From a virus: a stretch of DNA of 22,269 nt. Within the stretch, counting starts at the first letter, position 1; every line of letters begins with the position of its first letter. The stretch is from the IMG/VR virus record IMGVR_UViG_3300032069_000859, positions 1-22,269 of that record; one strand, given 5' to 3'. The notes below the pieces were generated by a model. The model worked only from the letters and a program-made list of their open reading frames with translations, made no database searches and was not told the origin of the DNA. The position numbers were made by a program, and so were the translations under genes. Shown here one piece after another: positions 659 to 18,922 of the stretch.

Positions 659-790
659 CTGACCGAAGAGCGGAGGTCGCGTGGATGCCGCCCCTACAGG
701 GCGGCCGTCCAACGGTCTCCGCTCCATCGTTGCGAGCGCACCCTTCGGTCAGCCGGCATCCACCGCGGCCCCCTCCTCGGCCCGAGGAGG
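659..790 (+). promoter_or_regulatory. Structured leader of the sigma-like gene, SD-sequestering stems
   Basis: Nested inverted repeats are visible. Outer arms CTGACCGAAG (659-668) and CTTCGGTCAG (743-752) match perfectly. Inside, GAGCGGAG (668-675) matches CTCCGCTC (717-724) and extends to 12 pairs (668-679 with 713-724) with two G-U wobbles. A symmetric 7x7 internal loop follows, then a perfect 7-bp hairpin (687-693 with 699-705, loop CTACA). A second hairpin pairs CCTCCTCG (772-779) with CGAGGAGG (783-790). The GGAGG at 672-676, 8 nt before ATG 685, and the GAGGAGG at 784-790, 5 nt before GTG 796, both lie inside stems. This suggests translational control of the sigma-like gene; the mechanism is inference. 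The segment 615-658 shows nothing clear. Confidence 0.6.
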
Positions 791-795
791 AAGAA

Positions 796-1425
796 GTGGG
801 TGCCGATCACAGTCGCAAGACGCTGGATGCCTATGCCGTTTCGTCCATCAAGCAGCACGCCCTACAGCTGATCCGCAGGGCCGGCTTCGTCCCCGAAGAC
901 TTCCACGACATCGTGCAAGAGCTGACGATCTATCTCTGGGAGCAGCTCGACAAGTTCGACCCTTCCCGCGGGAAGCGTACCACCTTCATCGACCGCGTCG
1001 TCCGCAACAAAGCAGCCGATATCCTGGAGGCACGTCGCGCCGCCTGTCGGGACTGCCGCCTCGAGATGGAGTCCATTCACGATGTAGTTACGGCCGAGGA
1101 TGGCGAGGATGCCTGCCTCGAGGATCTGGCCGAGACTGACGCGGTGCGCAGCCAGCAAGGCCTAAGCCACGATCCCTTCGAGCGCGGAGTTGAGCGGCGA
1201 GTAGATCTGCTGCGGGCCTTGGCGAAGCTCACCCCCGAGCAACTCGACCTCTGCCGGAGGCTGCTGGAGAACCCCAACCGCAGCCGCATTGCCGCCGACC
1301 TCGGGATATCGAGAGACACGCTCTACGAGTCGATCCACGCGATTCGCGCCATCTTCGAGCAGGCCGGCCTGCGCGTGCACCTCGGAGAGGAGTCCCGACA
1401 CTCCGGCGGGCCTTCCCGTAAGTAA
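796..1425 (+). CDS. Sigma-70-like (ECF-type) RNA polymerase sigma factor
   Basis: This 209-residue protein has the two-domain layout of small sigma-70 factors. A region-2-like helical block lies at about residues 17-75 (DIVQELTIYLWEQLDKFDPSRGKRTTFIDRVVRN in two halves), and a region-4-like helix-turn-helix at about residues 148-190 (LTPEQLDLC ... RSRIAADLGISRDTLYESIHAIRAIF). An acidic linker joins them. It probably redirects host RNA polymerase to phage promoters. I chose GTG 796 because GAGGAGG (784-790) precedes it by 5 nt and the upstream in-frame stretch from ATG 685 is Pro/Arg-rich low complexity overlying strong hairpins; ATG 685 also has a good GGAGG, so a 246-residue form remains possible. 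The last codons overlap a 21-bp sequence repeated near 12.2 kb. No other transcription factor is visible beside it. Confidence 0.72.
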   Translation: MGADHSRKTLDAYAVSSIKQHALQLIRRAGFVPEDFHDIVQELTIYLWEQLDKFDPSRGKRTTFIDRVVRNKAADILEARRAACRDCRLEMESIHDVVTAEDGEDACLEDLAETDAVRSQQGLSHDPFERGVERRVDLLRALAKLTPEQLDLCRRLLENPNRSRIAADLGISRDTLYESIHAIRAIFEQAGLRVHLGEESRHSGGPSRK

Positions 1426-2470: not shown

Positions 2471-2575
2471 GGTGAGGCGAGGTCTGGCGAGGCGGGGCCT
2501 GGCTAGGCGGGGCCCGGTTAGGCTGGGTGAGGCGCGGTGGGCCGAGGTCGGGTACGGCGAGGCATGGCAAGGCAA
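2471..2575 (+). repeat. Pentanucleotide array GGYNN x 21
   Basis: From 2471 to 2575 nearly every fifth base starts a GGC or GGT triplet (20 of 21 units; the exception is GCCGA). The commonest units are GGCGA, GGTGA, GGCGG and GGCAA. The array fills the gap between the stop at 2464 and the ATPase start at 2609. Open frames across it give Arg/Gly/Ala-rich repeats and are not credible genes. Imperfect GC-rich pentamer arrays of this kind occur beside recombination genes in some phages; the function is unknown to me. Confidence 0.85.
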
Positions 2576-2608
2576 GGGTCGTTCATCCGATTGGAGAGGA
2601 GAACAGCA

Positions 2609-3388
2609 GTGGGCATCTTACCGACGGAACCAACACCCCCGAAGACCGATCTGTCACAGTCCACCATCCTGGTGTACGGCGACGTCAAGATCGGCAAGAC
2701 GGAGTTCAGCTCGCACTTCCCCGACAGCATCTTCCTGGCGGCTGAGGCCGGCCAGGGCGGCATCGAATGCTATCGCGTGGGCATCGACAGCTGGGCCACG
2801 TTCCTATCCGCCTGCGGCGAGCTCGCCCAGGGAGGCCACCGCTTCCGCACGGTCATCGTTGACACCGTGGACGCGCTCTGGCAGCTCTGCCAACGCCATG
2901 TCTGCGAGCAGCAGAACATCCAGCATGAAGCCGACATGCCGTATGGCAAAGGCTACAGCCTGGTGCTGAACGAGTTCCAACGGGTGATCGCGAAGCTCTC
3001 TCACCTGGGCATGGGCCTTGTTCTCATCAGCCACGCCGACCGCGAGGAGATCCAGGGCCGCACCGGCACCTACCACAAGGCCGTCCCCGCGCTGAGGGAC
3101 AAAGTGCGCAAGTTCCTGCTGGGCCTGTGCGACCTGGTGCTGTACTGCGACACCGAAACCGCGGCCGGCCCCGACGGCAAGCCTATCACTCGGCGCGTTC
3201 TCCGCACCAAGCCGTCGCAGCACTGGGAGAGTGGCGATCGCACGGGACGCCTCCCAGAGATTCTCCCCCTGGATTACGACGCGTTCAAGGCGGCCTTCGA
3301 GGCCGCTGCGCAGTCCCTGTGTCCGGCAATGTCCGGTCCCGGGAATTCCACAACCCCACAAGGAGAGACGAGCCATGAGCAGCAGTGA
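2609..3388 (+). CDS. Sak4-like RecA-fold ATPase (AAA_24-type), recombinase
   Basis: This is a single-domain RecA-like ATPase of 259 residues, the usual size of phage Sak4 proteins. Such proteins bind DNA and promote strand annealing with a partner SSB. Walker A is GDVKIGKT (residues 24-31), Walker B is TVIVD (81-85), and a conserved LVLISHADREE follows at about residue 136. The GTG at 2609 is chosen because GGAGAGGAG (2593-2601) lies 7 nt upstream and the frame before it runs through the pentamer array. The stop overlaps the next gene by 14 nt, so translation is probably coupled to the DUF669-type protein, a pairing common in phages. No truncation is visible. A generic AAA ATPase of other function is possible, but the neighbourhood favours recombination. 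Confidence 0.85.
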   Translation: MGILPTEPTPPKTDLSQSTILVYGDVKIGKTEFSSHFPDSIFLAAEAGQGGIECYRVGIDSWATFLSACGELAQGGHRFRTVIVDTVDALWQLCQRHVCEQQNIQHEADMPYGKGYSLVLNEFQRVIAKLSHLGMGLVLISHADREEIQGRTGTYHKAVPALRDKVRKFLLGLCDLVLYCDTETAAGPDGKPITRRVLRTKPSQHWESGDRTGRLPEILPLDYDAFKAAFEAAAQSLCPAMSGPGNSTTPQGETSHEQQ

Positions 3389-3878
3389 CGAGCGCGGCGC
3401 AGCTCAGGAAGTCAGCGCCACCGATCTCGCGACCTTCGACGCGGAGTTCGAAGGAGCGCCGATGGAGGACTCGGGGTTCGAACCCCTACCCGACGGCAAG
3501 TACCAGGTAACGGTCGAGCGGGTTGAACTCGTGCGCTCCCGCGCTGGCAATGCGATGTTGCGCTGGACCCTGCGCGTCCTCGGCCCTCAGTGCCAGGGGC
3601 GTCTGCTCTGGCGCAACAACGTCATCGCCTCGGCCGAAAACTTGAAGTGGTTGAAGAGCGACCTGCACACCTGCGGCCTCACGCTGGGCAAGCTCTCGGA
3701 GCTGCCGTCGCGATTGCCGGAGCTGCTCGACATCCACCTCGAGGTCACCAAGCGGACGCGGGGTGAGAACGAGAGCGTCTACCTGAACAAGCGCATCGAG
3801 GCGGCCGGCGCTCCTGCGGCTTCGGCCGGTTCGGCCGGCTCAGCCGGGTCCACTGGCTCCGCCCTTCCGCCCTTTTGA
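3375..3878 (+). CDS. DUF669-like candidate single-stranded DNA-binding protein
   Basis: Residues 35-140 read as an OB-like beta-rich domain typical of phage DUF669 proteins: DGKYQVTVERVELVRSRAG, then MLRWTLRVLGPQCQGRLLWRNNVI, and a final strand DIHLEVTKRTRGENESVYLNKRI. The ATG at 3375 has AGGAGAG upstream and lies inside the end of the Sak4-like gene. DUF669 proteins are regularly encoded next to Sak4-like ATPases and are thought to act as SSB. The C-terminal 25 residues are a Ala/Gly/Ser repeat ending in LPPF. This recalls the flexible tail and terminal Phe of bacterial SSB, but lacks the acidic residues that normally bind partner proteins. The 1-nt gap to the nuclease gene suggests the same operon. 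Confidence 0.75.
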   Translation: MSSSDERGAAQEVSATDLATFDAEFEGAPMEDSGFEPLPDGKYQVTVERVELVRSRAGNAMLRWTLRVLGPQCQGRLLWRNNVIASAENLKWLKSDLHTCGLTLGKLSELPSRLPELLDIHLEVTKRTRGENESVYLNKRIEAAGAPAASAGSAGSAGSTGSALPPF

Positions 3879-4326: not shown

Positions 4327-6524
4327 CGTCTCAGTCGGTCACAGTACGGGGCCGGGTGGAGGATGTGTACTTCTCCAGCCCCGGCTTCTCGGCCGGCTGC
4401 CTGCGCGGCGAGGACGGGAAGAGAGTTAAGTTCGCGGGGCCGGTGCTGGTGCAGGAGCATGAGCCGGTGGTGCTGAGAGGCCGCTGGGAGACGCACACAA
4501 AGTACGGCCGGCAGCTTCAGGTGGAGGCAGTCGAGCTCGACCTCGACCTAGACCCAGAGGGCCTAGCGCACTATCTCGCTCACCATCCTGCGATCAAAGG
4601 CATCGGTCCTGTGAAGGCGCGACGCATCGCCGTTCGCTTTGGATCGGACTTCGAGCGCGCCCTGACCGAAGAGCCGCAGTTGATCGCCGACGAAGCGCAC
4701 ATCCCGTTGGAGACGGTGGAGGCACTCCGCGACGAATGGCTCCGCACGAAGACGGTGAACGCCGCCTTAATCTGGCTCTCCGCCTACGGGCTGACTCACC
4801 ACCAAGTCACCACACTCGTCGAGAAGTACGGCAACAATGTCGTCGCCATCCTGAGGGCCGACCCCTACCTGATTGTCAAGGAGATCCCTGGCTTCGGCTT
4901 CCGGCGAGTAGACCAGATCGCGCTCCAGATCGGGACCCCAAAGGAGCACCCGTCGCGGCTTCGGGCGGGAGTGCTGTTCTGCGTGCGCGAGCGCCTGGAG
5001 CAGGGCGACTGCTGGGTCGGGTATGAGCAGCTGATCGAGCTGGCGAACGGCGTGCTAGCGCTGGACACCATCGGCAGTCGTGAGTTGATCGAGCACACGC
5101 TTGAGGGTCTGATCGGCGTGGGCGAGCTCTCCTGTGCTTCCTATGCGGGCCGCTTCCTGGTAGCCATCCCTGAGATTCGGCGCATGGAGGAGGAGCTGGC
5201 CGCGGTCTTCTCCTCCGGCAACGCGCCCAACCCGCACTTCGCTGACGACACCGATGCCGACGCGCTGATCGAAGAGCAGGCGCCCGACCTGAACCCAGGT
5301 CAGCGTGAGGCAGTAAGGGCCGCGCTCAAGCACCGCATGTCTCTGATCTCAGGTGGAGCGGGGAGCGGCAAGACCTATGTCAGCGCGGCCATCACCACCA
5401 TCTGCCGCGCCCACGAACTCTCCGTTGTCCTCGCGGCGCCCACCGGCAAGGCCGCCAAGCGCATGGAGCAGGTGGTCGGTCAGGAGGCCTTCACCATCCA
5501 CCGCCTGCTCGGGTATGACGGGCGCAACTTCGCCCTGGGTGCCGATGACCCGATCGACGCGGACGTGCTGATCGTGGACGAGGTTTCGATGCTCGATGTG
5601 CCCCTCGCCTGGCAACTGTTCCAGGCGGTCGATCCCGAGCGCACCGCGGTCATCTTGGTGGGCGATCACAACCAGCTCCCTCCAGTCGGCCCGGGCAACA
5701 TCCTGCGCGACCTGACTGATACGCGCGTGCTGCCGACCGTGGTGCTCGACGAGATCGTCCGCCAGGCCGGCCCGCTCAAGGAGAACTCCATCGCAGTGCT
5801 GCGGGGAGAAGTGCGCAAGACCGCGACGCCTGAGCCTGCCAGAGTTCCGCCCTGGATTCTGATCAACCACCTCACCCGGGCCGAGGAAGTTCTGCGAGCA
5901 CTGCTCGACATGCACCGGGACGGCATCGCGGAGCGGCTGCGTTTCGACCTGATCTCCGAAGTGCAGGTGCTGACCCCGACCCACAAGGGGCCGCTGGGCA
6001 CGGCCGCACTGAATGTTGAGCTCCAGCGGCTGCTGCAGAGGAAGCTGTACGGGGTCGAGGTGCCTCCTACCCGGCCGGGCCGCCGGCCCCGCTTCCTGCT
6101 CCACGACAAGGTGATCCAGAAGCGCAACAACTATGACCTCGGCGTCATGAACGGCTCCATCGGTCAGGTGATTGCGGCGAACGCGAAGAGCCACGACCTC
6201 GTCGTTCGCTTCTTCGACCGGGATGTGCGCGAGGTCGAGCTGTCAGCCGAGGAGGGCCATCTCCAGGACCTCCACTTGGCCTACGCGCTCACCATTCACT
6301 CGGCGCAGGGCTCGGAGTTTCCTTGCGTGGTGCTGGTGGTCCACAAGTCCCACAGCTTCCAGCACCACCGGAACCTGTTCTACACGGGCGTCACTCGCGC
6401 CCAGCAGGTGGCGATCATCCTGGGTGACCAGTGGGGCATCCGGAACTGCGCCGATAAGCGCGAGGTCGGACGGCGCAAGACGTTCCTTTCGCTGCTTGGC
6501 CAGCAGGACGGGAGCGATGAATGA
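4311..6524 (+). CDS. recD2: RecD2-like SF1B DNA helicase
   Basis: The 737-residue protein has the RecD2 order. An N-terminal OB-like domain (residues 6-85) is followed by helix-hairpin-helix segments (IKGIGPVKARRI; IPGFGFRRVDQIA). Walker A is GGAGSGKT (348-355), then APTGKAAKRM and Walker B VLIVDEVSML (about 419-428). GDHNQLPPVGPG follows, and a C-terminal helicase domain carries HSAQGSEF (about 662) and YTGVTRAQ. RecD2 proteins unwind DNA 5' to 3'. ATG 4311 is preferred because AAGGTGAT lies 6 nt upstream; ATG 4323 is an alternative. The end overlaps the primase gene by ATGA. RecBC partners are absent, as is usual for RecD2. It probably works with the nuclease, SSB and Sak4-like protein in recombination or fork restart. 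Confidence 0.9.
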   Translation: MLDAMTSQSVTVRGRVEDVYFSSPGFSAGCLRGEDGKRVKFAGPVLVQEHEPVVLRGRWETHTKYGRQLQVEAVELDLDLDPEGLAHYLAHHPAIKGIGPVKARRIAVRFGSDFERALTEEPQLIADEAHIPLETVEALRDEWLRTKTVNAALIWLSAYGLTHHQVTTLVEKYGNNVVAILRADPYLIVKEIPGFGFRRVDQIALQIGTPKEHPSRLRAGVLFCVRERLEQGDCWVGYEQLIELANGVLALDTIGSRELIEHTLEGLIGVGELSCASYAGRFLVAIPEIRRMEEELAAVFSSGNAPNPHFADDTDADALIEEQAPDLNPGQREAVRAALKHRMSLISGGAGSGKTYVSAAITTICRAHELSVVLAAPTGKAAKRMEQVVGQEAFTIHRLLGYDGRNFALGADDPIDADVLIVDEVSMLDVPLAWQLFQAVDPERTAVILVGDHNQLPPVGPGNILRDLTDTRVLPTVVLDEIVRQAGPLKENSIAVLRGEVRKTATPEPARVPPWILINHLTRAEEVLRALLDMHRDGIAERLRFDLISEVQVLTPTHKGPLGTAALNVELQRLLQRKLYGVEVPPTRPGRRPRFLLHDKVIQKRNNYDLGVMNGSIGQVIAANAKSHDLVVRFFDRDVREVELSAEEGHLQDLHLAYALTIHSAQGSEFPCVVLVVHKSHSFQHHRNLFYTGVTRAQQVAIILGDQWGIRNCADKREVGRRKTFLSLLGQQDGSDE

Positions 6525-9523
6525 ACGACGCGAGAGCAGCCCCCGATCCACAGTCCGCACTGGAGCTGCTGCGTCGGTACTTCCTGTGTCGCACCGACCG
6601 GATCGCGTTCCTGGCCCCCTGGGGCAAGCCATGTCCCGCGGACGTGGGCGAGGAGCTCGAGGCGCTGCTCCTTGCTCACGTGCAGGGGGAGTCGGCGCCG
6701 AAGGCTACGGTTCGCTATCGCAATCGCCGCGGCCAGGGAGCAGTGGCCGGTCGGTTCCGCGTGGGCGCCTACGCGCCCGCACCCGATGGCACCACAAAGT
6801 GGGTCTGCCTGGACTTCGACGGCGGTGATCATGCCGACGCTCTGGCCAACCCGAAGCAGACAGCCGTTGAGACCTGGCATCGACTCACGCAGGCCGGCAT
6901 TGCAGCCTACCTGGAGCGCTCCGGCAGCGGTAAAGGATGGCACCTATGGTGCTTCTTCGAGCCGCCACTGAAGGCCGAGAAGGCGCGCGCCCTGGCACGG
7001 GCGCTGATACCCGAAGAGGTCACACTCGGCACCGGGGAGGTGGTCCGCACCAACACGGGCCGCGGAGTCGAGATCTTCCCGAAGCAGGCCAAGGTCGAGA
7101 AGAAGGGCTATGGCAACCTGGTATGGCTGCCGTGGTGGTCTGGTGCAGAGGATGGCGCTAACCAGTTTCACCGACCCGGTGATCAGGGCCACCTGGTGCC
7201 CTATGCCCCGGCCGAGTTCGAGACTGCAGACGAGGCGCGGGTCGACGCTGCCATCGCCCGGCACACGCAGCCCGTCGATTCCCCAGTTGCGCAAGTGGAT
7301 GAGCCCGCCAACACGGACGATCAGTCCTGGCGGGAGTGGCGCAAGCAGGCGCTGGCCGCCCTGCCACTGGAGTCGGTCTACGGGGAATGGCTTACCGGCC
7401 GCAAGCACAGCACCGGCTGGCTGGAATGCCGGGATCCCTGGTCGCCAACTGGTGACCGCGATCCCTCGGCCGGCGTGTCGGATGGCACCGGTCAGGGTGA
7501 GCGCGGGCAGTTCCATTCCTTCATCTCCGGCGAGTCGCTTTCTGTCTTCGACTTCCTGGTGAAGCGCTGCCTGGCGGCTGATTTCGCGGAGTCAAGACGC
7601 CAGGTCGCTACGCTGTCCGGTGTCCCTCCGCCGGCAGGAAGGGCGCCGGGACCTGCCGCTTCTAGCAGTCCGAAGCAGCCCTCCCGGCCGCAGATTCGCG
7701 TCAACAACCGCCAGCTGCGGGATATCATCGCCGACGGTTGGCAGGCAGTCCACGCTGCGAACCGGCCCCCCGTGCTCTTCCGGCGGGCAGACAGTCTGGC
7801 CAGGCTTGTCCTTGGCGATGGTGACCCGCACATCGCGCTCGCTGACGAGGCCGCCGTATACGGTCTCCTGGCGCGCGCTGCCGACTGGGTGAAGGTAACC
7901 GACGACGCGGTGGTGAGCGTGAGTCCGGTACGGGACGTGGCTCGCGACATGCTCGCCTACCCCGACACCGCCCTCGGTCCGCTCGATGGCGTGGTCTGTG
8001 CCCCGGTCTTCGACGCGTCAGGCAGCTTGATCTCTCGGCCTGGCTACCACGCCGAAGCGCGGCTCTGGTACCACCAAGCTACCGATCTCTCCCTGGACCG
8101 GATGCCTGGCAGTGTGACGGCCGAACAGGTCGAGGCGGCAAAGCGCCTGCTCTTCGAAGAGCTGCTGGTTGACTTCCCGTTCGTGTCGGAGTCCGATCGA
8201 GCGCACGCGGTGGCCGCCATGCTGCTCCCGTTCGTGAGGCGGATGGTTGGCGGATGCACGCCCATCCATCTGATCGAGGCGCCGGCGCCAGGCTCTGGTA
8301 AGAACCTGCTCGCGGACGTAGTTTCCCTCATCGCCACCGGGCATGCGTGCGAGCCGACGACGGTGACCTCCGACGAGGACGAGACTCGCAAGAAGGTCAC
8401 CGCGCTGCTGGCGAAGGCGCAGCCTGTCATCCTGCTCGACAACGTCCGCGTGGGGATCGAGTCGGCGCAGCTGTCGTCGGCGCTCACGGCAGAGGTGTGG
8501 TCAGACAGGCTGCTGGGCCAGAACCGGATGATTGATCTGCCCAACCACGCCACCTGGCTGGTGACCGCGAACAACCCCCGCCTCTCCCTGGAGATCGCCC
8601 GGCGCTGCATTCGCATCCGCATGGACCCGCAGACCGATCGGCCCTGGCAGCGGGTCGGCTTCCGGCACTCGCCGCTGCGGGACTGGATCAGGGAGAACCG
8701 GCCCGCGCTCGTACGCGCAGTGCTGACCCTGGTGCAGGCCTGGATCGCGGCCGGGCGGCCGCGGGCGGGGATCACGCTGGGATCGTTCGAGAGCTGGGCT
8801 GGAGTGATAGGAGGCATCCTCGCCAATGCCGGCATCCGGGGCTTCCTGGGCAACGCGGAGGAGCTGTACGAGGCCGCCGACGTCGAGGGCAACGAGTGGC
8901 GGGAGTTCGTGGCGGCCTGGTGGGAGGCCCATCAGGACCACTGGGTCGCGGCCAAGGATCTGCTCGAACTCGCCCTCGAACGCGACCTGCTGGGCAGCGT
9001 GATCGGCGACAAGTCACTCCGTTCCCAGCAGATCCGGCTCGGGCTGGCCCTGGCGGCCGCACGGGACCGGCAGTTCGCGGACTGGCGACTGCTCATGCGC
9101 TATGACTCACACTCGAAACGGGCCGCCTATCGCCTGGCGATGGTCGGATCACCCGATGATCGCGCGGGATGTTGCGGGATGTCACGCGGTATGTTTGAGA
9201 CCAACATCCCGCGGCCTATTTGCACCCAGGACCAGGCCAGATTGGGCCAGGCTGAATCCGCGGAATGTTGCGGGATGTTTGAACAACCTTATGCGCATGC
9301 GCGCACATGCGTGCCCGCGCGCACGCACGCGAAGAGTGATCGGGGAAATCATCCCGCAACATACCGCGAGGAGGCTTCGACAGCCTCAGAGGTCAGCCTC
9401 GACGCTCCTGGGCCGCGGAATGATGCGGGATGTGGGTTTTCAACATCCCGCGGAACATACCGCGAAGATCCCGCGGACGGCCCCGTTGACCTAGCCAACC
9501 TACCTGAGGAGGTCGAAGGGTGA
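6521..9523 (+). CDS. Primase-helicase: TOTE-type archaeo-eukaryotic primase plus P-loop helicase
   Basis: The N-terminal domain has the archaeo-eukaryotic primase signature in the TOTE style: DFDG (98-101, catalytic Asp), ERSGSGKGWHLWCFF (about 132-146), EIFPKQ (184-189) and GYGNLVWLP (196-204). A segment at about 270-365 (CRDPWSPTGDRDPSAG ... SFISGESLSVFDFLV) looks like a CHC2 primase fold that has lost its zinc ligands. The C-terminal ATPase has Walker A APGSGKN (589-595), Walker B VILLD (636-640) and a TANNP sensor followed by RRCIRIR, like SF3/DUF927-type helicases. It should prime and unwind at replication initiation. From about residue 880 the sequence is Cys/Gly/Arg-rich and is set by a DNA repeat array rather than by a recognisable domain. 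The start overlaps the RecD2 stop (ATGA); the end overlaps the next gene (GTGA). Confidence 0.82.
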   Translation: MNDARAAPDPQSALELLRRYFLCRTDRIAFLAPWGKPCPADVGEELEALLLAHVQGESAPKATVRYRNRRGQGAVAGRFRVGAYAPAPDGTTKWVCLDFDGGDHADALANPKQTAVETWHRLTQAGIAAYLERSGSGKGWHLWCFFEPPLKAEKARALARALIPEEVTLGTGEVVRTNTGRGVEIFPKQAKVEKKGYGNLVWLPWWSGAEDGANQFHRPGDQGHLVPYAPAEFETADEARVDAAIARHTQPVDSPVAQVDEPANTDDQSWREWRKQALAALPLESVYGEWLTGRKHSTGWLECRDPWSPTGDRDPSAGVSDGTGQGERGQFHSFISGESLSVFDFLVKRCLAADFAESRRQVATLSGVPPPAGRAPGPAASSSPKQPSRPQIRVNNRQLRDIIADGWQAVHAANRPPVLFRRADSLARLVLGDGDPHIALADEAAVYGLLARAADWVKVTDDAVVSVSPVRDVARDMLAYPDTALGPLDGVVCAPVFDASGSLISRPGYHAEARLWYHQATDLSLDRMPGSVTAEQVEAAKRLLFEELLVDFPFVSESDRAHAVAAMLLPFVRRMVGGCTPIHLIEAPAPGSGKNLLADVVSLIATGHACEPTTVTSDEDETRKKVTALLAKAQPVILLDNVRVGIESAQLSSALTAEVWSDRLLGQNRMIDLPNHATWLVTANNPRLSLEIARRCIRIRMDPQTDRPWQRVGFRHSPLRDWIRENRPALVRAVLTLVQAWIAAGRPRAGITLGSFESWAGVIGGILANAGIRGFLGNAEELYEAADVEGNEWREFVAAWWEAHQDHWVAAKDLLELALERDLLGSVIGDKSLRSQQIRLGLALAAARDRQFADWRLLMRYDSHSKRAAYRLAMVGSPDDRAGCCGMSRGMFETNIPRPICTQDQARLGQAESAECCGMFEQPYAHARTCVPARTHAKSDRGNHPATYREEASTASEVSLDAPGPRNDAGCGFSTSRGTYREDPADGPVDLANLPEEVEG
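9164..9474. repeat. Array of 13 iteron-like 10-mers (GCGGGATGTT), both orientations
   Basis: Forward copies start at 9164, 9174, 9186, 9260, 9270, 9415 and 9425. Reverse copies (AACATCCCGC) start at 9203, 9348, 9358, 9442, 9454 and 9465. Every copy matches the consensus at 8 or more of 10 positions. Neighbouring copies are mostly 10-12 bp apart, one helical turn, so a protein could bind on one face. Inverted pairs make hairpins: 9186-9212 and a perfect 9-bp one at 9425-9451. Copies fall in different reading frames and on both strands, so this is DNA-level conservation, not a peptide repeat. It may be a replication origin, partition site or operator inside the 3' end of the primase-helicase gene. 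Confidence 0.88.
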
Positions 9524-10265: not shown

Positions 10266-11159
10266 ATGGACGTGCTCGGAGACATCGTGTGTGGCGGCTT
10301 GGATGTCGTATTCGTTGGGACCTCGGTAGGCGAGATCTCCGCACAGCGGGGTCACCACTACAGCGACCCGACGAACTCCTTCTACCGCGACCTGTTTGCT
10401 GGTGGCTTCACAGACCGGCTGCTGCGCCCGGATGAGGACCACCTGCTACTCCGATATGGCATCGGACTGACGGACCTGGCGAAGCAGGCCGTGTCGAGCG
10501 ATGATCGGACCCTGTCAGAGTCTGATTGGGACCGCGGCCGGCTCGACGAGACGATCCGGAAGCATCGCCCCAGGGCAGTCTGCTTCAATGGCAAGAAGGC
10601 GTTCAGAGCGTGGTCGGGGATCAGGAAGAGCGACTGGGGCCTCCAGACATCTGCCTTGTTCCGGGGCATCCCGATCTTCGTAGTGCCTTCCACGAGTGGG
10701 CGGGTACCTGGCGGCAAGCCCCTTGGCGGGCGGACCCGCACAGAGTGGTTCGTGGCTCTGCGCGCGTGGCTATCGGGAGAGAGATCTGCGCTTGAGGGAA
10801 CAGCGGCAAGGGAGGGTGCCCGGGACATGGAACACACACCACAGGATGATCTGGCGACTGTCATCACGGCGGAGATCGTGGCGAGGTTCGAATCAGAGAG
10901 GAAGGCTCCCTATCTGGACGGGGATGGCTATCTTGTCTGCGGGGGGCGGAGCGGTGTGCACCTCATTGTGTACCGGAGGCACAATAACCCGAAGCCGTGG
11001 CCAGTGCCTTTCTCCGCCCTAAGGGAGGCGGTCGGTCAGTCGTGCGCGCTCGGGCGTCCTCTGCGTCAGACGGAGTGCAATGCCATCTGCAATCGGCGAG
11101 GCACGCCCATCGCCATTCTGCTGAGGCTGGTTCCCGATTCGCGTTACCAGACGACGTAG
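10266..11159 (+). CDS. Uracil/mismatch DNA glycosylase (Mug/TDG-like) with extra C-terminal domain
   Basis: Residues 12-165 match the Mug/TDG fold: LDVVFVGTSVG (12-22), ISAQRGHHYSDPTNSFY, GFTDRLLRPDEDHLLLRYGIGLTDL, then AVCFNGKKAF (about 103-112) and VVPSTSGR (about 139-146). In E. coli Mug the first motif is GINPG with Asn activating water. Here it is GTSVG, so it belongs with the divergent GTxxG group of family-2 glycosylases, and activity on uracil or mismatches must be shown. Residues from about 195 to 297 form an added domain (DLATVITAEIVARFESE ... YLVCGGRSGVHLIVYRR ... ECNAICNRRGTPIAILLRL) that I cannot identify. The gene has its own promoter and converges on a minus-strand gene, so it looks like cargo inserted in the replication block. 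Confidence 0.75.
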   Translation: MDVLGDIVCGGLDVVFVGTSVGEISAQRGHHYSDPTNSFYRDLFAGGFTDRLLRPDEDHLLLRYGIGLTDLAKQAVSSDDRTLSESDWDRGRLDETIRKHRPRAVCFNGKKAFRAWSGIRKSDWGLQTSALFRGIPIFVVPSTSGRVPGGKPLGGRTRTEWFVALRAWLSGERSALEGTAAREGARDMEHTPQDDLATVITAEIVARFESERKAPYLDGDGYLVCGGRSGVHLIVYRRHNNPKPWPVPFSALREAVGQSCALGRPLRQTECNAICNRRGTPIAILLRLVPDSRYQTT

Positions 11160-12504: not shown

Positions 12505-13734
12505 GTGAGCACCGCTCTAGCGCCCGTTGAACACGGGCAGAACGCGGGCCTGGACCTGTCGGGATATGACCCGCAGGCCTACAACATCCTCTCCCCCGTG
12601 CTGCGGCTGGATACCGCGGCTCCGTATCTGCGGCTCCGAGCCGTAGAAGTCAGGCTGGACCCCGACGTGCATCGCGGCGACTGCTATGCCGCGCCGGGCA
12701 CGAAGTGGACCAAGGACAGGCGCACAGGAGAACTGCTGCCGGTGCTGGTAGCACCGAGCAAGCCGGGCCTGCTGAAGATCGCCTCCGCAGCGGGCCTGAT
12801 CATCGACCCCCGCAACTCCCACCGCATCACTCCCGATGCCTGTGAGCGCTGCATCGAGATGGCGCAGGCGACCCAACAGGCCGCGCGCTGCGGCGACTGC
12901 TCCTCGCGTTTCGACACGGCGTACCAGTACATCGGCGCGGTCAGGACCGACACGGGCTGGCGCATCGTGAAGGCCAGCTACGAGTGGAATCTCGATGCCC
13001 AGCGGCGCAAGCTCGTGCGCGAGGCGAAGAAGCGACTGGCGAAGGCCCAGGAGGAGGGCAAGTCCTTTGGCGTCGAGGAGCACGTCGAAGATCGTCTCGA
13101 CCAGCTCATCGCCGAGCGGTACGGCCTCGCCGAGACGAAGGCGCTCCTGCGGCTCGTGCGAGCCATTTGCCATCTGCGCCAGGCCTACACGCGTGAGGAG
13201 ATGGCCCGGCCCTTCGTCGTCGTGCGCACCGAACTCGCTCCCGATTTCGCTGATCCCGAGACGCGACGCGCGCTGGCGGCAAAGGCGATCTCAAGTGGAG
13301 CAGAGATCTTCGGGCCGGCCGAGGATGAGCGGCCATTGCTGCATGTCCCCAAGGCGGAGGTAGTTGACGAGCTCGCCTCTGGGCCGGACTTCACCGATGC
13401 CGAAGTGCGTGCCGAGGAAGCGGCCGATGACGACCTCGACGGAGCCGTCCCGATCACCGACACGATCGGACCTGACGACCCCGGCGCAGACGCGTTGACG
13501 GAAGCGGTGGCCAAGCCGGTCGCGGTCCAGGTATCCGACGGACCCGAACCTGTGCAGCACACGCCAACGCCCGCACCAGAGGCCGGCACTTGTGATGACT
13601 GCGGCGCTTCGTTGACGCCGGCGGTGGTCGCCTACTGCCAGAGCCCGCGTGGCAAAGCAACCTTCGGCGGCGCGAGTTACTGCTACGCCTGCCAGAAGAA
13701 GCATCGGCCGGCGAGGAAGGCGGTGGCACGGTGA
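12505..13734 (+). CDS. Phage DNA-metabolism protein, possible single-strand annealing protein, C-terminal zinc finger
   Basis: The start at GTG 12505 is favoured by GGAGG (12493-12497) 7 nt upstream; the frame is open from 12259, which would add 82 poorly coding residues. The opening DPQAYNILSPVLRLDTAAPYLRLRAVEVRLD, then KPGLLKIASAAGLIIDPRNS, resembles phage proteins thought to be RecT/Erf-like annealing proteins, where a GLxKIAxAAGI-type block recurs. A CxxC...CxxC cluster (CERCIEMAQ ... CGDCSSRF) follows, then a helical basic stretch (REAKKRLAKAQEEGKS) and an acidic Asp/Glu-rich linker. A C-terminal zinc ribbon (CDDCGASL ... CYACQKKH) closes the 409-residue protein. The stop overlaps the SbcD-like start. 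The annealing role is inference from pattern and position; the zinc motifs are plain. Confidence 0.6.
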   Translation: MSTALAPVEHGQNAGLDLSGYDPQAYNILSPVLRLDTAAPYLRLRAVEVRLDPDVHRGDCYAAPGTKWTKDRRTGELLPVLVAPSKPGLLKIASAAGLIIDPRNSHRITPDACERCIEMAQATQQAARCGDCSSRFDTAYQYIGAVRTDTGWRIVKASYEWNLDAQRRKLVREAKKRLAKAQEEGKSFGVEEHVEDRLDQLIAERYGLAETKALLRLVRAICHLRQAYTREEMARPFVVVRTELAPDFADPETRRALAAKAISSGAEIFGPAEDERPLLHVPKAEVVDELASGPDFTDAEVRAEEAADDDLDGAVPITDTIGPDDPGADALTEAVAKPVAVQVSDGPEPVQHTPTPAPEAGTCDDCGASLTPAVVAYCQSPRGKATFGGASYCYACQKKHRPARKAVAR

Positions 13735-14969
13735 GCCTCCGCGCAGTACACACGGCCGACTGGCACTTCTCTGCGCAGCGCAACCGGATCGACGCTGACA
13801 CCGGACTGAACTCTCGGCTCATCGACTTCTATCGCTGCGCGCGGTTCACCATCGAAGACGGCTTGAGCCGCGGGGCGCAGCTTGTCCTGCATGCGGGTGA
13901 CGCGTTCCATGGCTGTCGCCCCACGCCCTCGGAGGTGCGGCTACTCCGGGAGGCGCTGCGACCGGCACTGGAGGCCGGGGTGCCGGTGGTGCTGTTGTTG
14001 GGTAACCACGACGCACCCCGGTCTCCGGCCGAGAAGCACGCGCTCGATCTCGTTCGGGAGACGCCCGGGCTGCTCGTGATCGACCGGTCGATGTTGCTGA
14101 ACGTGTGGCAGGGCGATGGTCGCGTGATGGTGGAGCCCACGAACGTCGCCACGCCGGACGGACGTGACTTGGCTCTGCAACTGGCGTGTCTCCCCTGGCC
14201 GAACAAGCAGCTTCTCCTGGCCGACGAGGAATACCGGAGACTCGACCCCGGCCAGCTCAACGAGGTCGTCCGGCAGAAGATGATGGACTGCCTGCAGGGA
14301 CTGGTGGCCGACTGCATCCCTGGCATCACCGCGATTCTGCTCGCTCACCTCTCGGTGGACCTCGCCCAGGCCGGCGGCCAAAACCGGCTCATGGCCCTGG
14401 GCGGCGAGTGGACCCTGAACGTCCACGACGTGGCCGGCCTCGGCTTCGACGCGGTATGCCTGGGACACATCCATCGGGCGCAAGTGCTGTGCGACGCGCC
14501 ATGGATCGGCTACTGCGGCAGCCCCGAGGCCGTGACCTTTGGCGAAGAGACAGAGGGGAAGAGCTACTGCCTTCTCGACGTCCATGACGACTGCAGCGTC
14601 GCGGTCGAGCAGATCCCGACGCCGCACCGACGCTTCCTCACCATCGACCTGAGCAACGGTCATGCACTCCCGACGCCCGATGAACTTGCCGGCGCCATCG
14701 TGCGCGTCCGCGTGCCGCAGGCGAGCGATGTCGACTTCGCCGCCTTGCGCCGCGACCTTGAAGCGGCCGGCGTGCATGAGTACCAGGTGGAGACCCAGCG
14801 GGCGGAGACGGTGAGACGGCGCGCGGTGGCGGTGTCTTCGGAGATGGCGCTGGAGGAAGCGATCAAGGCTTACCTTGAGCAACGCCCTGAGTTGCAGCCC
14901 CTCGCCGACGCGCTACTCGCGGAAGCACGCGTGGTGGAACAGACCGTCGTCGCAGGAGGTGCAGCATGA
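13731..14969 (+). CDS. sbcD: SbcD/Mre11-like exonuclease subunit
   Basis: This is a calcineurin-type metallophosphoesterase with all expected metal motifs: DWH (residues 10-12), GDAFH (56-60), GNHD (91-94), AHLS (His 206) and GHIH (245-248). SbcD/Mre11 works with SbcC/Rad50 to open DNA ends and cut hairpins; the T4 phage counterpart is gp47. At 412 residues it has the usual length, with a capping domain after about residue 270. The GTG at 13731 overlaps the previous stop, and the end overlaps the next small gene by ATGA. The partner SbcC-like gene lies one small gene downstream but appears broken, which may leave the nuclease without its ATPase. Confidence 0.9.
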   Translation: MSLRAVHTADWHFSAQRNRIDADTGLNSRLIDFYRCARFTIEDGLSRGAQLVLHAGDAFHGCRPTPSEVRLLREALRPALEAGVPVVLLLGNHDAPRSPAEKHALDLVRETPGLLVIDRSMLLNVWQGDGRVMVEPTNVATPDGRDLALQLACLPWPNKQLLLADEEYRRLDPGQLNEVVRQKMMDCLQGLVADCIPGITAILLAHLSVDLAQAGGQNRLMALGGEWTLNVHDVAGLGFDAVCLGHIHRAQVLCDAPWIGYCGSPEAVTFGEETEGKSYCLLDVHDDCSVAVEQIPTPHRRFLTIDLSNGHALPTPDELAGAIVRVRVPQASDVDFAALRRDLEAAGVHEYQVETQRAETVRRRAVAVSSEMALEEAIKAYLEQRPELQPLADALLAEARVVEQTVVAGGAA

Positions 14970-15163
14970 GCAAGTCCTACACGAGTGCCGAGATTCGGGG
15001 CCAGATCACCAGCCGCCAGCATGAGATTGAGGAGATCGCACTGCGATGTCTGGGGTCGGGATTCCCAGACGCGGCAGATGAACTGGCCGCGGCCTCGGCC
15101 GCAATGACCAGGGCGAAGCTGAGAGTGCAGCAGGCAAGTGTCGCCAGAGAGGGGGAGTCATGA
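14966..15163 (+). CDS. Small protein between sbcD- and sbcC-like genes (65 aa)
   Basis: The ATG overlaps the SbcD-like stop and has a strong AGGAGGTG about 6 nt upstream; the stop overlaps the SbcC start by ATGA. Such tight packing on both sides argues that it is a real gene. The 65 residues are predicted largely helical: EIRGQITSRQHEIEEIALRCL, then AADELAAASAAMTRAKLRVQQA. No family is recognised. A small helical partner or regulator of the Mre11/Rad50-like complex is possible but is only inferred from position. Confidence 0.7.
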   Translation: MSKSYTSAEIRGQITSRQHEIEEIALRCLGSGFPDAADELAAASAAMTRAKLRVQQASVAREGES

Positions 15164-15450
15164 GACCGGTCAGGCTGAAGCTCAACAACTTCCTGTCCTA
15201 CCGCGGCGAACACTCCATCGACCTCGATGGCGTCACGCTGGCGGTGCTCAGCGGCCCCAACGGCTCTGGCAAGTCCAGCCTCATCGACGCCATGCGCTTC
15301 GCCCTCTTCGGGCATACCCGCGGTGGTTCCGATGGGGTGATCACGGAGGGCGAGCAGGCCTGCCGCGTGGAGTTCGAGTTTGCTCTGGGTGATGAGACCT
15401 ACCTGGTATCTCGCCAGCGCAGCAGCGCATCGAGCAGGTGCTTCACCTGA
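15160..15450 (+). CDS. sbcC: SbcC/Rad50-like ATPase, N-terminal fragment
   Basis: The 96 residues match the beginning of SbcC/Rad50: LKLNNFLSYRGEHSIDLDG, Walker A GPNGSGKS (32-39), then DAMRFALFGHTRGGSDGVI and a strand DETYLVSRQR. The frame ends at TGA 15448-15450, and the rest of the protein continues in the -1 frame. In intact SbcC/T4 gp46 proteins about 20-50 residues separate the VxRxR strand from the LTxxxF block; here they are almost adjacent. A deletion between two CAGCGC copies (15415-15420 and 15423-15428) would explain both the loss and the frameshift. Two separate subunits, a programmed frameshift or an assembly error are alternatives. Start ATG 15160 overlaps the upstream stop and is well supported by AGAGGGGGAG. 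Confidence 0.8.
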   Translation: MRPVRLKLNNFLSYRGEHSIDLDGVTLAVLSGPNGSGKSSLIDAMRFALFGHTRGGSDGVITEGEQACRVEFEFALGDETYLVSRQRSSASSRCFT

Positions 15451-17327
15451 CGGACGACTTGTTCACGGTCACGGCCTGCGCGAACCAGGGCAATGTCGCG
15501 GCCTTCTCCCAGGCGAAGCCGGCCGCGCGCAAGCAGGTGCTGTCCGACATTCTGGACCTGGTCGCATGGGAGCGGCGTGCCGATGTTGCCAGGCAGCTGG
15601 GCCGGGACGTGGCGGCACAGGTGGAGGCCGATCGGACGCGCCACGCGGCGCTACAGGCGACCGCTTCCGAGGCGGACGGCCTGCGGGACCAGATCGCCCA
15701 GAATGACGCCACACAGGGCGACGTGGCGCGCCAAATCGCGGCCACGGAGGGCGAGCTCTCCCAGGCACAGGAGACCAAGGAGGCGCTCCTGCGCGACCGG
15801 GAGGCCGACCGCGCCCGCCGTGAGTCGCTGGACGAGCTCGCCGCGCGAGCCGAGACCACCAGGACGGCAATCGGTGAGGCGACCAGACGGCTGTCGCAAC
15901 TCGAGAAGGCGGTGAGCGGTAAGGCCGCGCTGCTCGACGGCATCCGCCGTGCAGAGGAAACCCAGACCTATGCTCAGGAACTCGAAGCCAAGCGCCAGGA
16001 GGATGAGCGGCTGGCGCACGAGGCCGAACTGGTCGAACAACGCAAGCGCGCCGCGGCGGCCGAACATGCGCAGGCCGTGCGGTCGCTGAAGGAACGGATC
16101 GAGGGTGCGCGGTCTGGTCATGAACGTCAAGTGCGATCTCTGCGCCAGCGCGTCGAGGACCTGAAGTCACAGGCGGAACCGCTGGAACGCGTGCCCTGCG
16201 CTGATACACAGATGGCCGCGACGTGCCCTTTGATCGAGGCAGCGCGCCGTGCGAAAGCAGCGCTGCCTGGTGTCCAGGCCGAGCTCGCCAAGCTACTCGA
16301 CAGTGACCCGACCGCGGATGATGCGAAACGGCTCTCGGCACTGGAATCGCAGCCCGTCGCACAGGCCGAAGACAAGCGGCTCCGCGAGATCGCCCGGGCG
16401 CGCAAAGAGGCCGGCTACGACGCGGCGGAGCACGCGAAGGCAAAGCAGGCCGCGGGCAAGTTGCGCGATCTGCAAGAGTCCCTGCGTCGGGTCGAACGGG
16501 CCGAAGCACAGCTGGCCGAGGTGCGCACGCAGCTTGATGGTCTGGCCGCCGAAGCCAAGCAGACGGCCGAGCGCAAGGCGGCACTGGAGAAGGAACTGGG
16601 CCCGGCCCGCGATTGGGACGCGCTGCTGGCGAAGGCGGAGCAGGCGATCAAGACAGCTCGCTCGGCGATCGCCGGCCTGCAGGCGAAGCTCCAGACCCTC
16701 GGGCAGCAACATGGTGCTCTGGAGGAACGGCTACGCCTGGCGGAACAGGCCGTCGCCGAAGTCGAGCAGCTCTCGGTTCAGCTGCGCGACGGGGATCGCC
16801 GCCTCAATCTCCTGAAGATCCTCGCCCAGGCATTCGGCAAGTCCGGTATCCCGGCCCTGCTGATCGAGCAGGCGGTACCAGACCTCGAAGCCGTCGCCAA
16901 TGACGTGCTGTCAACGCTGAGCGACGGCCGTATGTCCCTCGCCCTCCGCAGCCAGCGAGAGACTAAGGCCAAGACCATCCAGGAGACGCTCGACATCGTC
17001 ATCGCCGATGACCAGGGCCAACGCCCCTACGAGAGCTTCTCCGGCGGCGAGGCGATGCGGGTGGATCTGGCGCTGCGCATCGCGCTGTCGGTGCTACTTG
17101 CCAGTCGCGCCGGCGCGCGCTGCGAGATGCTCGTCCTCGATGAGACCTGTGCGCCGCTCGATGCGCAGGGACGAGCGCTCTTTGTTGACTGCCTGGGACG
17201 GATCTCCGATCGCTTCGCCACCGTGCTGGTGGTGACGCACGTGGACGAGCTCAAGGAGCTCTTTCCCTATCGCTTCGAGGTGAGCAAGAACGGACAGGGC
17301 AGCACGGTGAATCTGGTCGCCGCCTGA
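15438..17327 (+). CDS. sbcC: SbcC/Rad50-like ATPase, coiled coil and C-terminal lobe
   Basis: Starting in the -1 frame relative to the N-terminal fragment, this 629-residue part has the LTDDLFTVTACANQGNVAAF block, then a long coiled coil rich in Ala/Glu/Arg/Leu. A zinc-hook-like Cys pair (C254 and C263, eight residues between) lies in its middle. The C-terminal lobe has the ABC signature SFSGGE (533-538), Walker B with D568/E569, a D-loop APLD and H601. All C-terminal ATPase motifs are intact. The GTG at 15438 is the nominal start, but no good ribosome binding site precedes it and the frame is open back to 15396. It would need the N-terminal fragment to form the ATP site. It ends just before a terminator. 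Confidence 0.82.
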   Translation: MLHLTDDLFTVTACANQGNVAAFSQAKPAARKQVLSDILDLVAWERRADVARQLGRDVAAQVEADRTRHAALQATASEADGLRDQIAQNDATQGDVARQIAATEGELSQAQETKEALLRDREADRARRESLDELAARAETTRTAIGEATRRLSQLEKAVSGKAALLDGIRRAEETQTYAQELEAKRQEDERLAHEAELVEQRKRAAAAEHAQAVRSLKERIEGARSGHERQVRSLRQRVEDLKSQAEPLERVPCADTQMAATCPLIEAARRAKAALPGVQAELAKLLDSDPTADDAKRLSALESQPVAQAEDKRLREIARARKEAGYDAAEHAKAKQAAGKLRDLQESLRRVERAEAQLAEVRTQLDGLAAEAKQTAERKAALEKELGPARDWDALLAKAEQAIKTARSAIAGLQAKLQTLGQQHGALEERLRLAEQAVAEVEQLSVQLRDGDRRLNLLKILAQAFGKSGIPALLIEQAVPDLEAVANDVLSTLSDGRMSLALRSQRETKAKTIQETLDIVIADDQGQRPYESFSGGEAMRVDLALRIALSVLLASRAGARCEMLVLDETCAPLDAQGRALFVDCLGRISDRFATVLVVTHVDELKELFPYRFEVSKNGQGSTVNLVAA

Positions 17328-17398: not shown

Positions 17399-18922
17399 AT
17401 GCGAGAGATCCTGATCGGCGACTGCAGAGACAAGCTCAGAGACCTGCCCGCGGACAGCGTCCAGTGCGTGGTGACCTCGCCCCCGTATTGGGGCTTGCGC
17501 CGGTACGACGGGGAGCAGGAGGCGGTGTGGGGCGGCGATGCTGAGTGTCCCCATGACTGGGTCCCGCGGAGGTACTACGTGGAGCAGTCCACCGGCAAGC
17601 ATAGCCGGGAGGCGTTCGTCAAGCCGGGCGATGAGAACATCGAGCGGCTGAAGGCAGCGCGCTGGCGGGAGGACGCGTTCTGCGCGCGGTGCGGCGCCTG
17701 GCGCGGCGCCTTCGGCTTGGAGCCGACACCGGAGCTGTATGTGACGCACACAGTCGAGATTCTGAGAGAGGTCCGGCGCGTGCTGCGGCCCGACGGAGTG
17801 ATCTGGTGGAACCTGGGTGATTCCTACGCGGGCAGCGGACAAGGCTGGCAGCACAAGGACGGCGGCTCCATTCAGCGCAAGTGGCTGGATGCTTACGGCA
17901 CCGGCCGGCCTCCCGGCTACATCTCATCCGCCTCCCCGACTGGCCTCAAACCGAAGGACCTGACGCTCGTCCCGGCGAGAGTCGCGCTGGCCGCACAGGC
18001 CGACGGCTTCTGGGTGCGGGCGATGGTGATCTGGGAAAAGGTCAACTGCATGCCCGAGTCGGTGAAGGATCGCCCCACCGAGAGCCACGAGTACATCCTG
18101 CTGCTGACGAGGTCGGAGCGTTACTTCTACGACGCGGATGCGGTGCGCGAGCCGCATCAGGCGGCCTCTCTCCAGCGCGTCCAGCAGAAGTGGGCAGACA
18201 CCACCAAGTACGACGAGGAAAGCGCACCAGAGCATCAGCACTCGTGGCAGCGCGGAGAGCGCGGCATGGACCGCAACTGCCACCCCGCCGGCCGGAACCT
18301 CCGCAGCGTCTGGCGGTTCGCCACCATCCCCTACATGGGGGCGCACTTCGCGGTGTTCCCGCCGGAGCTGCCGCGGCGATGCATCCTTGCCGGGACTCCT
18401 CCGAAGGTGTGTGCTGATTGTGGGGCTCCCTGGGAACGGCTGACGAAGCGTGAGGCCGTCCCATATCCCAGCGGCTCACACGGCAACTACGTCAACAAGG
18501 GTCATCCCCCCGGCGGCCAGGAGCGGGACGACTCCACCACGCTGGGCAAGGTCGAGTACTACCGGATGGCGACCATCGGCTGGCAGCCGACCTGCGAGTG
18601 CCATGGGAATGCCGAGATCGTCCAGGTCGAGTGTCAGGAGTGCAGCGGCGAAGGCGCTGTTGACGGCGAGGCGTGCCCGACCTGCGACGGGAGTGGCCAG
18701 GTCGATACCCGCGTGTGGCCGGAGTCGGTATTGCAGGCCTGGCCGACCCGGCCGGCCATCGTGCTCGACCCCTTCGCGGGGTCCGGCACCACACTCAAGG
18801 TGGCCGAGGACCTGGGGCGCTGGTGGATCGGCATCGACATTTGCGAGCAGTACTCCGCGCAGATCAGAGAGCGCACCGCGCAGCGTTCGTTGGCGGCGGC
18901 GTTTGAGAACGAGACGGCCTGA
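17399..18922 (+). CDS. Beta-class DNA methyltransferase (N4-C or N6-A) with inserted zinc motifs
   Basis: The catalytic motif TSPPYW (residues 26-31) comes first and the SAM-binding VLDPFAGSGTTL (455-466) last, the beta-class order. Between them lie the target-recognition region and three Cys clusters: FCARCGAW (about 98), CADCGAPW (about 340), and a DnaJ-like pair CxxCSGEG ... CPTCDGSG (about 410-435). The 507-residue length is large for such enzymes because of these insertions. It probably methylates a short site in phage or host DNA, perhaps to block restriction. No restriction partner is nearby, so it is an orphan methyltransferase. The start ATG 17399 has only weak GGTGAG upstream. Specificity cannot be read from the sequence. 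Confidence 0.88.
   Translation: MREILIGDCRDKLRDLPADSVQCVVTSPPYWGLRRYDGEQEAVWGGDAECPHDWVPRRYYVEQSTGKHSREAFVKPGDENIERLKAARWREDAFCARCGAWRGAFGLEPTPELYVTHTVEILREVRRVLRPDGVIWWNLGDSYAGSGQGWQHKDGGSIQRKWLDAYGTGRPPGYISSASPTGLKPKDLTLVPARVALAAQADGFWVRAMVIWEKVNCMPESVKDRPTESHEYILLLTRSERYFYDADAVREPHQAASLQRVQQKWADTTKYDEESAPEHQHSWQRGERGMDRNCHPAGRNLRSVWRFATIPYMGAHFAVFPPELPRRCILAGTPPKVCADCGAPWERLTKREAVPYPSGSHGNYVNKGHPPGGQERDDSTTLGKVEYYRMATIGWQPTCECHGNAEIVQVECQECSGEGAVDGEACPTCDGSGQVDTRVWPESVLQAWPTRPAIVLDPFAGSGTTLKVAEDLGRWWIGIDICEQYSAQIRERTAQRSLAAAFENETA

Follow-up and report, generated by a model that had tools for sequence, protein, structure and literature searches.

Among the closest described systems is the theta-type origin (repAB plus iterons) of the Streptomyces plasmid pWTY27. 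Its replication is bidirectional and requires repA, repB and a 300-bp non-coding array, of which a 149-bp inner fragment is insufficient; RepA shifts the array in gels and leaves footprints at 405-447 and 462-509, and the array was read by its authors as a long stem-loop and not as a mirrored array of sites (PMC3583192). The SaPI helicase Rep reads iterons located beside its own gene with its C-terminal domain, apparently as two hexamers (PMC7581432). In lambda-type origins, the iterons lie within the coding sequence of their own initiator, the O gene (PMC7466680). Finally, ORF904 of pRN1 joins a primase, an SF3 helicase and a C-terminal winged helix in one protein and uses a stem-loop following the rep gene (PMC4234260).

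The DNA analyzed in this study (the window) is a stretch of 22,269 nucleotides, i.e. positions 1 to 22,269 of the IMG/VR record IMGVR_UViG_3300032069_000859, and all coordinates follow it (Table 1). The gene containing the array of 10-mers had been called a primase-helicase gene in an earlier, sequence-only reading, and this was borne out by an N-terminal AEP-TOTE primase domain (Pfam, E 6.9e-21) and a helicase half of the PriRep/D5 fold. For the helicase half, family and sequence searches yielded no consistent Pfam family and no solved sequence relative, and therefore fold comparison was used. The best solved match of the model of residues 390-876 (pLDDT 89) was SaPI5 PriRep (7ola, Z 13.5, over model residues 1-400); other close folds were poxvirus D5/E5 and NrS-1, all of them primase-helicases and several solved as hexamers, while SCCmec Cch (5dgk) matched the helicase model with a Z of 11.2. 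The last 94 residues, modelled alone (pLDDT 93), are predicted to form helices followed by a two-strand wing, and they resemble the Zur/FurB winged helices with a Z of about 8, which is at the edge of being meaningful. According to these models, both features by which a SaPI-type helicase is recognized, a D5/SF3-like helicase fold and a C-terminal winged helix, would be present.

Table 1 Features of the window discussed in the text. Sites are given by strand and first position.
Feature	Position	Strand	Basis or remark
Sigma-factor-like protein	685-1425		
AAA_24/DUF669 pair	2537-3878		
RecD2-like helicase	4311-6524		
Gene of the primase-helicase (1000 aa; AEP-TOTE primase at the N terminus, then AAA+/SF3-type helicase, winged helix and a variable tail)	6521-9523	+	Pfam, model
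C-terminal winged helix (residues 783-876), putative reader of the 10-mers	8867-9148	+	Model, RepA homology, wing covariation
Dyad-symmetric iteron array, candidate replication origin	9163-9475		Site scan, self-complementarity, same layout in relatives and plasmids
Left outer cluster (+9164, +9174, +9186, -9203)	9164-9212		Site scan
Left inner doublet (+9260, +9270)	9260-9279	+	Site scan; counterpart of a RepA footprint in pWTY27
Spacer between the halves, candidate opening site	9280-9347		25-nt purine-pyrimidine alternating run at 9290-9314
Right inner doublet (-9348, -9358)	9348-9367	-	Site scan
Right outer cluster (+9425, -9442, -9454, -9465, plus the weak extra +9415)	9415-9474		Site scan
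Acidic C-terminal peptide, conserved, directly after the array	9482-9520	+	Relatives' peptides at the same place
Uracil-DNA-glycosylase-like protein	10266-11159		
SbcD/SbcC-like pair	13731-17327		
DNA methyltransferase	17399-18922		

The sequence-only reading had reported thirteen 10-mers with at most two mismatches at 9164-9474, and all 13 were recovered at these positions. Compared with the word of the window, GCGGGATGTT, four sites are perfect, eight have one mismatch and one has two. The whole window contains 43 matches to this word (23.2 expected; none of 100 shuffles reached 43), 13 of which are concentrated in 311 bp within the final 120 codons of the 1000-codon ORF. The steps of 10-12 bp described within the groups also held, except that a 17-bp step spans the convergent pair in each outer group. 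Clusters of near-exact motif copies were confined to the array in three viral contigs of 58-61 kb, and searches of phage records at the DNA level, with the array or the whole window as the query, gave no match. The array is confirmed as real and non-random.

Short repeated peptides occur in the tails of several relatives (e.g. CGTSCGTCGTSCGT in L003), and the 10-mers might be regarded as a by-product of such a repeat in the protein. This can practically be dismissed. The sites occupy both strands and all three codon phases and encode differing peptides, and synonymous recoding removes the pattern (the best de novo repeat score of the tail was 110, compared with 68 or less after 300 recodings), so the earlier statement that protein repeats provide no explanation stood. 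Moreover, in several relatives the array is non-coding and located 3' of the stop codon (L015, L028, L037 and L049, and weakly L012); since it lies outside any reading frame of the gene there, the array is a DNA element and not a coding repeat, and the by-product explanation is refuted by these copies.

The reading frame of the window, like that of several relatives, continues through the array to an acidic ending (e.g. DLANLPEE, DLAQIPDWEE or DLAELPDEWE) with the pattern x-D-L-A-x-L/I-P-x-x-x-E. The peptide of the window is PVDLANLPEEVEG, and the peptides of relatives at the same place are PIDLAQIPDWEED, PVDLADLSDDEED, ITDLAELPDEWE, EFDLSDLPEDF and LLDLAKIPEGDE. This conserved peptide is possibly a protein-binding tip, and it may be the reason why the frame is kept open across the array.

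The main property of the array, overlooked in the sequence-only reading, is that it constitutes a dyad. Read by strand, the layout is +++- ++ (spacer) -- (+)+---, and the start-to-start distances are + 10 + 12 + 17 - 57 + 10 + 78 - 10 - 57 + 10 + 17 - 12 - 11 -. The whole array matches its own reverse complement, although imperfectly: complementarity amounts to 79% between the arms 9174-9212 and 9425-9463, and to 91% between 9259-9280 and 9347-9368. By order and strand, 12 of the 13 sites can be paired (the odd one is the weak +9415), while 10 are mirrored within 2 bp on one exact axis, because the axis of the outer four pairs (approximately 9318.5) and that of the inner two (approximately 9313.5) are 5 bp apart, as would result from the insertion of a single 10-bp site unit into the right half. 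An equal symmetry was obtained in 2 of 500 shuffles of both spacing and strands, and in 53 of 500 when strands alone were shuffled; therefore, the symmetry of a single array is only suggestive, and the weight rests on the comparison across relatives (in L007, 12 of 12 sites mirror).

A symmetric region of this kind could also act as one long hairpin or cruciform that is read by its structure, with the repeats as a mere stem, as was proposed for the pWTY27 array and the pRN1 origin. The strand 9163-9475 indeed folds as one long imperfect hairpin (-97.6 kcal/mol versus -61.8 for shuffles, z -10), the ORF904 system offers a precedent of similar protein architecture, and L008, L011, L072 and pWTY27 show more complementarity of the between-site bases than expected by chance (1-4 of 500 shuffles). 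In the window, however, this between-site complementarity is at the shuffled level (16 versus a mean of 16.1), as it is in L003, L024 and L049, which means that the hairpin of the window derives from the sites themselves. The convergent pair in each outer cluster and the steps of about one helical turn are likewise as expected for protein sites. Recognition of the element by its structure is highly improbable, although the excess in L008, L011, L072 and pWTY27 makes some structural contribution conceivable.

Relatives were collected by profile searches with the primase-helicase among viral contigs and contigs of metagenome-assembled genomes, and were screened, with no motif given in advance, for 10-mers repeated within 1 kb of the winged helix. 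A score of at least 86 was obtained in 19 of 31 relatives with at least 40% identity (the window counted among them), whereas random 1-kb segments of the same loci had a median score of 48, with 64 as the 95th percentile. Random segments scored above 80 only at the displaced arrays of L013/L016 and at repeats in L009; as the null of the first screen was contaminated with displaced true arrays, its 99th percentile was not used as a threshold. The sample includes close pairs (L003/L004, L024/L025, L031/L038, L013/L016 and L034/L035), and the independent lineages are therefore fewer. Weaker arrays were seen in L012, L027 and L031/L038.

The presence of the same 10-mers at the end of related primase-helicase genes had been put forward as a check. 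Repeated 10-mers are found at this place in most relatives, but each lineage has its own word: GCGGGACGTC (L003), GCGGAACTTC (L006), GCGGTACCTT (L007), TGGAAACGTT (L008), TGGGGACGTT (L011), GCGGGGAGTT (L015), TACAGACCTT (L036) and others. The layout is kept. That of L007 is +9+13+19-54+10+101-10-55+19-13-10-, L036 has +11+15-12-48+9+80-9-48+12+11+25-, and L008 and L011, whose words are quoted above, share +20+11+17-49+9+(94 or 73)-9-49+17-11-10-. Each half comprises exactly six sites in L007, L008, L011 and L036. A search of the arms between the outer and inner clusters for a lineage-independent motif gave nothing above shuffles overall.

Six close relatives (L009, L014, L030, L032 and L034/L035) have no array near the gene, and none was seen there in the more distant helicase relatives phiAsp2, RcXuper, Rctr197k, L062, L063 and L065. 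In L009, the best repeat lies upstream of the gene and was rejected as an array, since it is a coding repeat that specifies PET in frame. In L013 (10431-10691) and L016 (3916-4176), a dyad array with the word CCGGCACCTC is located about 3 kb downstream of the primase; the element is thus able to leave the gene, and its location is usual but not fixed.

Two further loci differ in arrangement. A single intergenic region of L015 (6585-7133) contains two tandem arrays of the same 10-mer, the second with a long alternating CG spacer. In L064 (Methanosarcinales virus vir525; 5532-5869), following a distant helicase homologue, iterons without a clear dyad flank an 87-bp spacer of only 18% GC; this archaeal virus thus has an opening element of the more classical type.

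Homologues of the helicase half were also found on plasmids. The array of pWTY27 (L067) has 5+5 sites in the order +11+15-41+9+71-9-41+15-11-, and that of a Streptomyces rubiginosohelvolus plasmid (L072), in non-coding DNA 3' of the gene, reads +11+10+16-50+9+78-9-51+17-10-11-. A further mirrored array is present in L084, and L069 and L086 show a simpler form with inverted triplets; no array was seen in several other plasmid homologues (e.g. L070, L085, L087 and L088). A CTGACCTGC box in both arms, between the outer and inner clusters, was observed only in L072 (6962-7170) and L067 (8248-8430), and is a possible extra origin element of these two Streptomyces plasmids. RepA of pWTY27 aligned with the helicase and winged-helix profile of the window over 462 columns, covering template positions 55-532 of 538, with a probability of 100% (hhalign, E 2.5e-64), and the winged helix is homologous to the C-terminal end of RepA. 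Mapped onto the layout, the pWTY27 footprints cover both inner doublets and the adjoining spacer and leave the mid-spacer open. By analogy, this comparison is the strongest functional evidence for the array.

Binding of the array by the initiator is very likely on these grounds. Of the three binders considered in the sequence-only reading (the primase-helicase, the product of the gene at 9520 and a regulator), the primase-helicase is favoured by the homology and binding of pWTY27 RepA, and the 9520 product is unneeded for the explanation; the idea of origin-type iterons bound by the primase-helicase also gains from the layouts of the relatives. Within the protein, differences between motifs follow those of the wing (residues 851-876) more closely than helicase divergence accounts for (partial Mantel r 0.29, p 0.0008), in an exploratory test for which four sub-regions were tried and the motif register was set by hand. 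After the same correction, the recognition-helix stretch 826-850 alone gave no partial correlation with the motif (p 0.43). The covariation, which is only suggestive, indicates that the 10-mers may be read by the winged helix of the protein itself.

A separate small protein with 35-55% identity to the primase winged helix is encoded just after the primase in L003 (8982-9323), L004 (8988-9326) and L006 (8045-8302). This protein could be a rival binder of the array, engaged in copy-number control. Plasmid iteron arrays serve in control and partition too. The array might accordingly be a site of this type for another phage protein, such as an operator, a centromere-like site or iterons that govern copy number or incompatibility, with replication starting elsewhere, and it does overlap the coding region just upstream of gene 9520. 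We consider this very unlikely. The separate winged-helix protein was detected only in the three relatives named above and not in the window. A search of the + strand from the array to gene 9520 revealed no promoter typical of an operator, and the - strand has one weak promoter-like match (9156-9185). Furthermore, the initiator of pWTY27 binds an array of the same layout, and replication of the plasmid depends on this array (PMC3583192).

We therefore regard the array as very probably the replication origin of the phage, bound by the primase-helicase whose gene contains it. Under the best reading, a self-loading hexameric primase-helicase would start bidirectional replication from iterons placed within the tail of its own coding sequence. 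Each subunit would bind one 10-mer through its C-terminal winged helix, and sites about one helical turn apart would set the subunits side by side. The mirrored halves, canonically of six sites each, would then place two helicase rings face to face over a spacer of 60-110 bp, although the 13 sites of the window and the 10 of pWTY27 speak against a universal six per ring. Opening of the spacer would lead to bidirectional replication, in which the N-terminal primase domain may provide priming.

Unlike usual opening sites, the spacer of the window is not AT-rich; its GC content (65%) resembles that of the surroundings. Across 21 arrays, the longest purine-pyrimidine alternating run per spacer has a mean of 18.1 nt, compared with 6.3 nt for random stretches taken from these loci, with 0 of 2000 attaining the observed value. 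It may be speculated that alternation aids opening, e.g. by a transition to the Z-form. In G001 and G002, but not in G003, the turning point of the cumulative GC skew is no more than a few kb away from the array. The skew is confounded by gene orientation and is at best weakly compatible with an origin at the array.

These results provide a testable pair of origin and initiator for a group of uncultivated phages. The binding word of the initiator can evidently be replaced many times while the layout, measured in base pairs, hardly changes, which suggests that the layout mirrors the assembly of two helicase rings. A simple rule follows for locating origins in phages, plasmids and integrated elements, namely to inspect such genes at their 3' end, and the question is raised of how a GC-rich spacer with alternating purines and pyrimidines is opened. 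Taken together, the observations can be read more broadly, as a widespread class of tailed-phage and plasmid origins in which selection maintains a fixed two-fold geometry with about 12 sites, so that every helicase subunit has one site in a pair of hexamers facing each other. In this class, the word would co-drift with the wing as a private replication code of each lineage, an alternating (Z-prone) spacer would be opened instead of an AT-rich element, and the origin would be overlaid on the coding tail of the initiator. This joint reading is tentative and, as a whole, rather unlikely.

As a kind, this type of origin is known; the intragenic setting, the fixed geometry with a drifting word and the alternating spacer that is not AT-rich are new. 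Searches of open-licence literature yielded no description of such an origin inside a phage gene, with a geometry that is conserved while the word drifts. With lambda-type origins the window shares iterons within the coding sequence of the initiator, but O is not a helicase and the four iterons of lambda lie beside an AT-rich tract, whereas the window has a helicase domain, a GC-rich spacer and a 13-site dyad. The pRN1 system has the same protein architecture and an origin at the 3' end of the gene; its stem-loop lacks iterons, while the hairpin potential of the window is accounted for by its 13 iterons. The self-loading helicases of SaPI (Rep/ori) and SCCmec (Cch2) resemble the window protein in the modelled helicase fold, yet there is no match to solved relatives at the sequence level, and the array of the window differs in being coding, in both orientations and dyad-symmetric, with a spacer that is not AT-rich. 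SaPI iterons are located directly downstream of the gene, as in the four relatives with a clearly non-coding array, while those of the window are at the 3' end but within the reading frame. The array of pWTY27 is non-coding, follows the stop codon and has its own sequence (GTGGGAACC), and its primase is a separate gene (RepB), whereas the primase of the window is fused at the N terminus and the array lies inside the ORF. Nevertheless, the two systems share an initiator homologous over the helicase and winged helix, the mirrored layout (inner doublets 9 bp apart, spacer of about 60 bp) and the location of the array where the gene of the initiator has its 3' end. The long inverted repeat of pWTY27 can be reinterpreted as mirrored binding sites.
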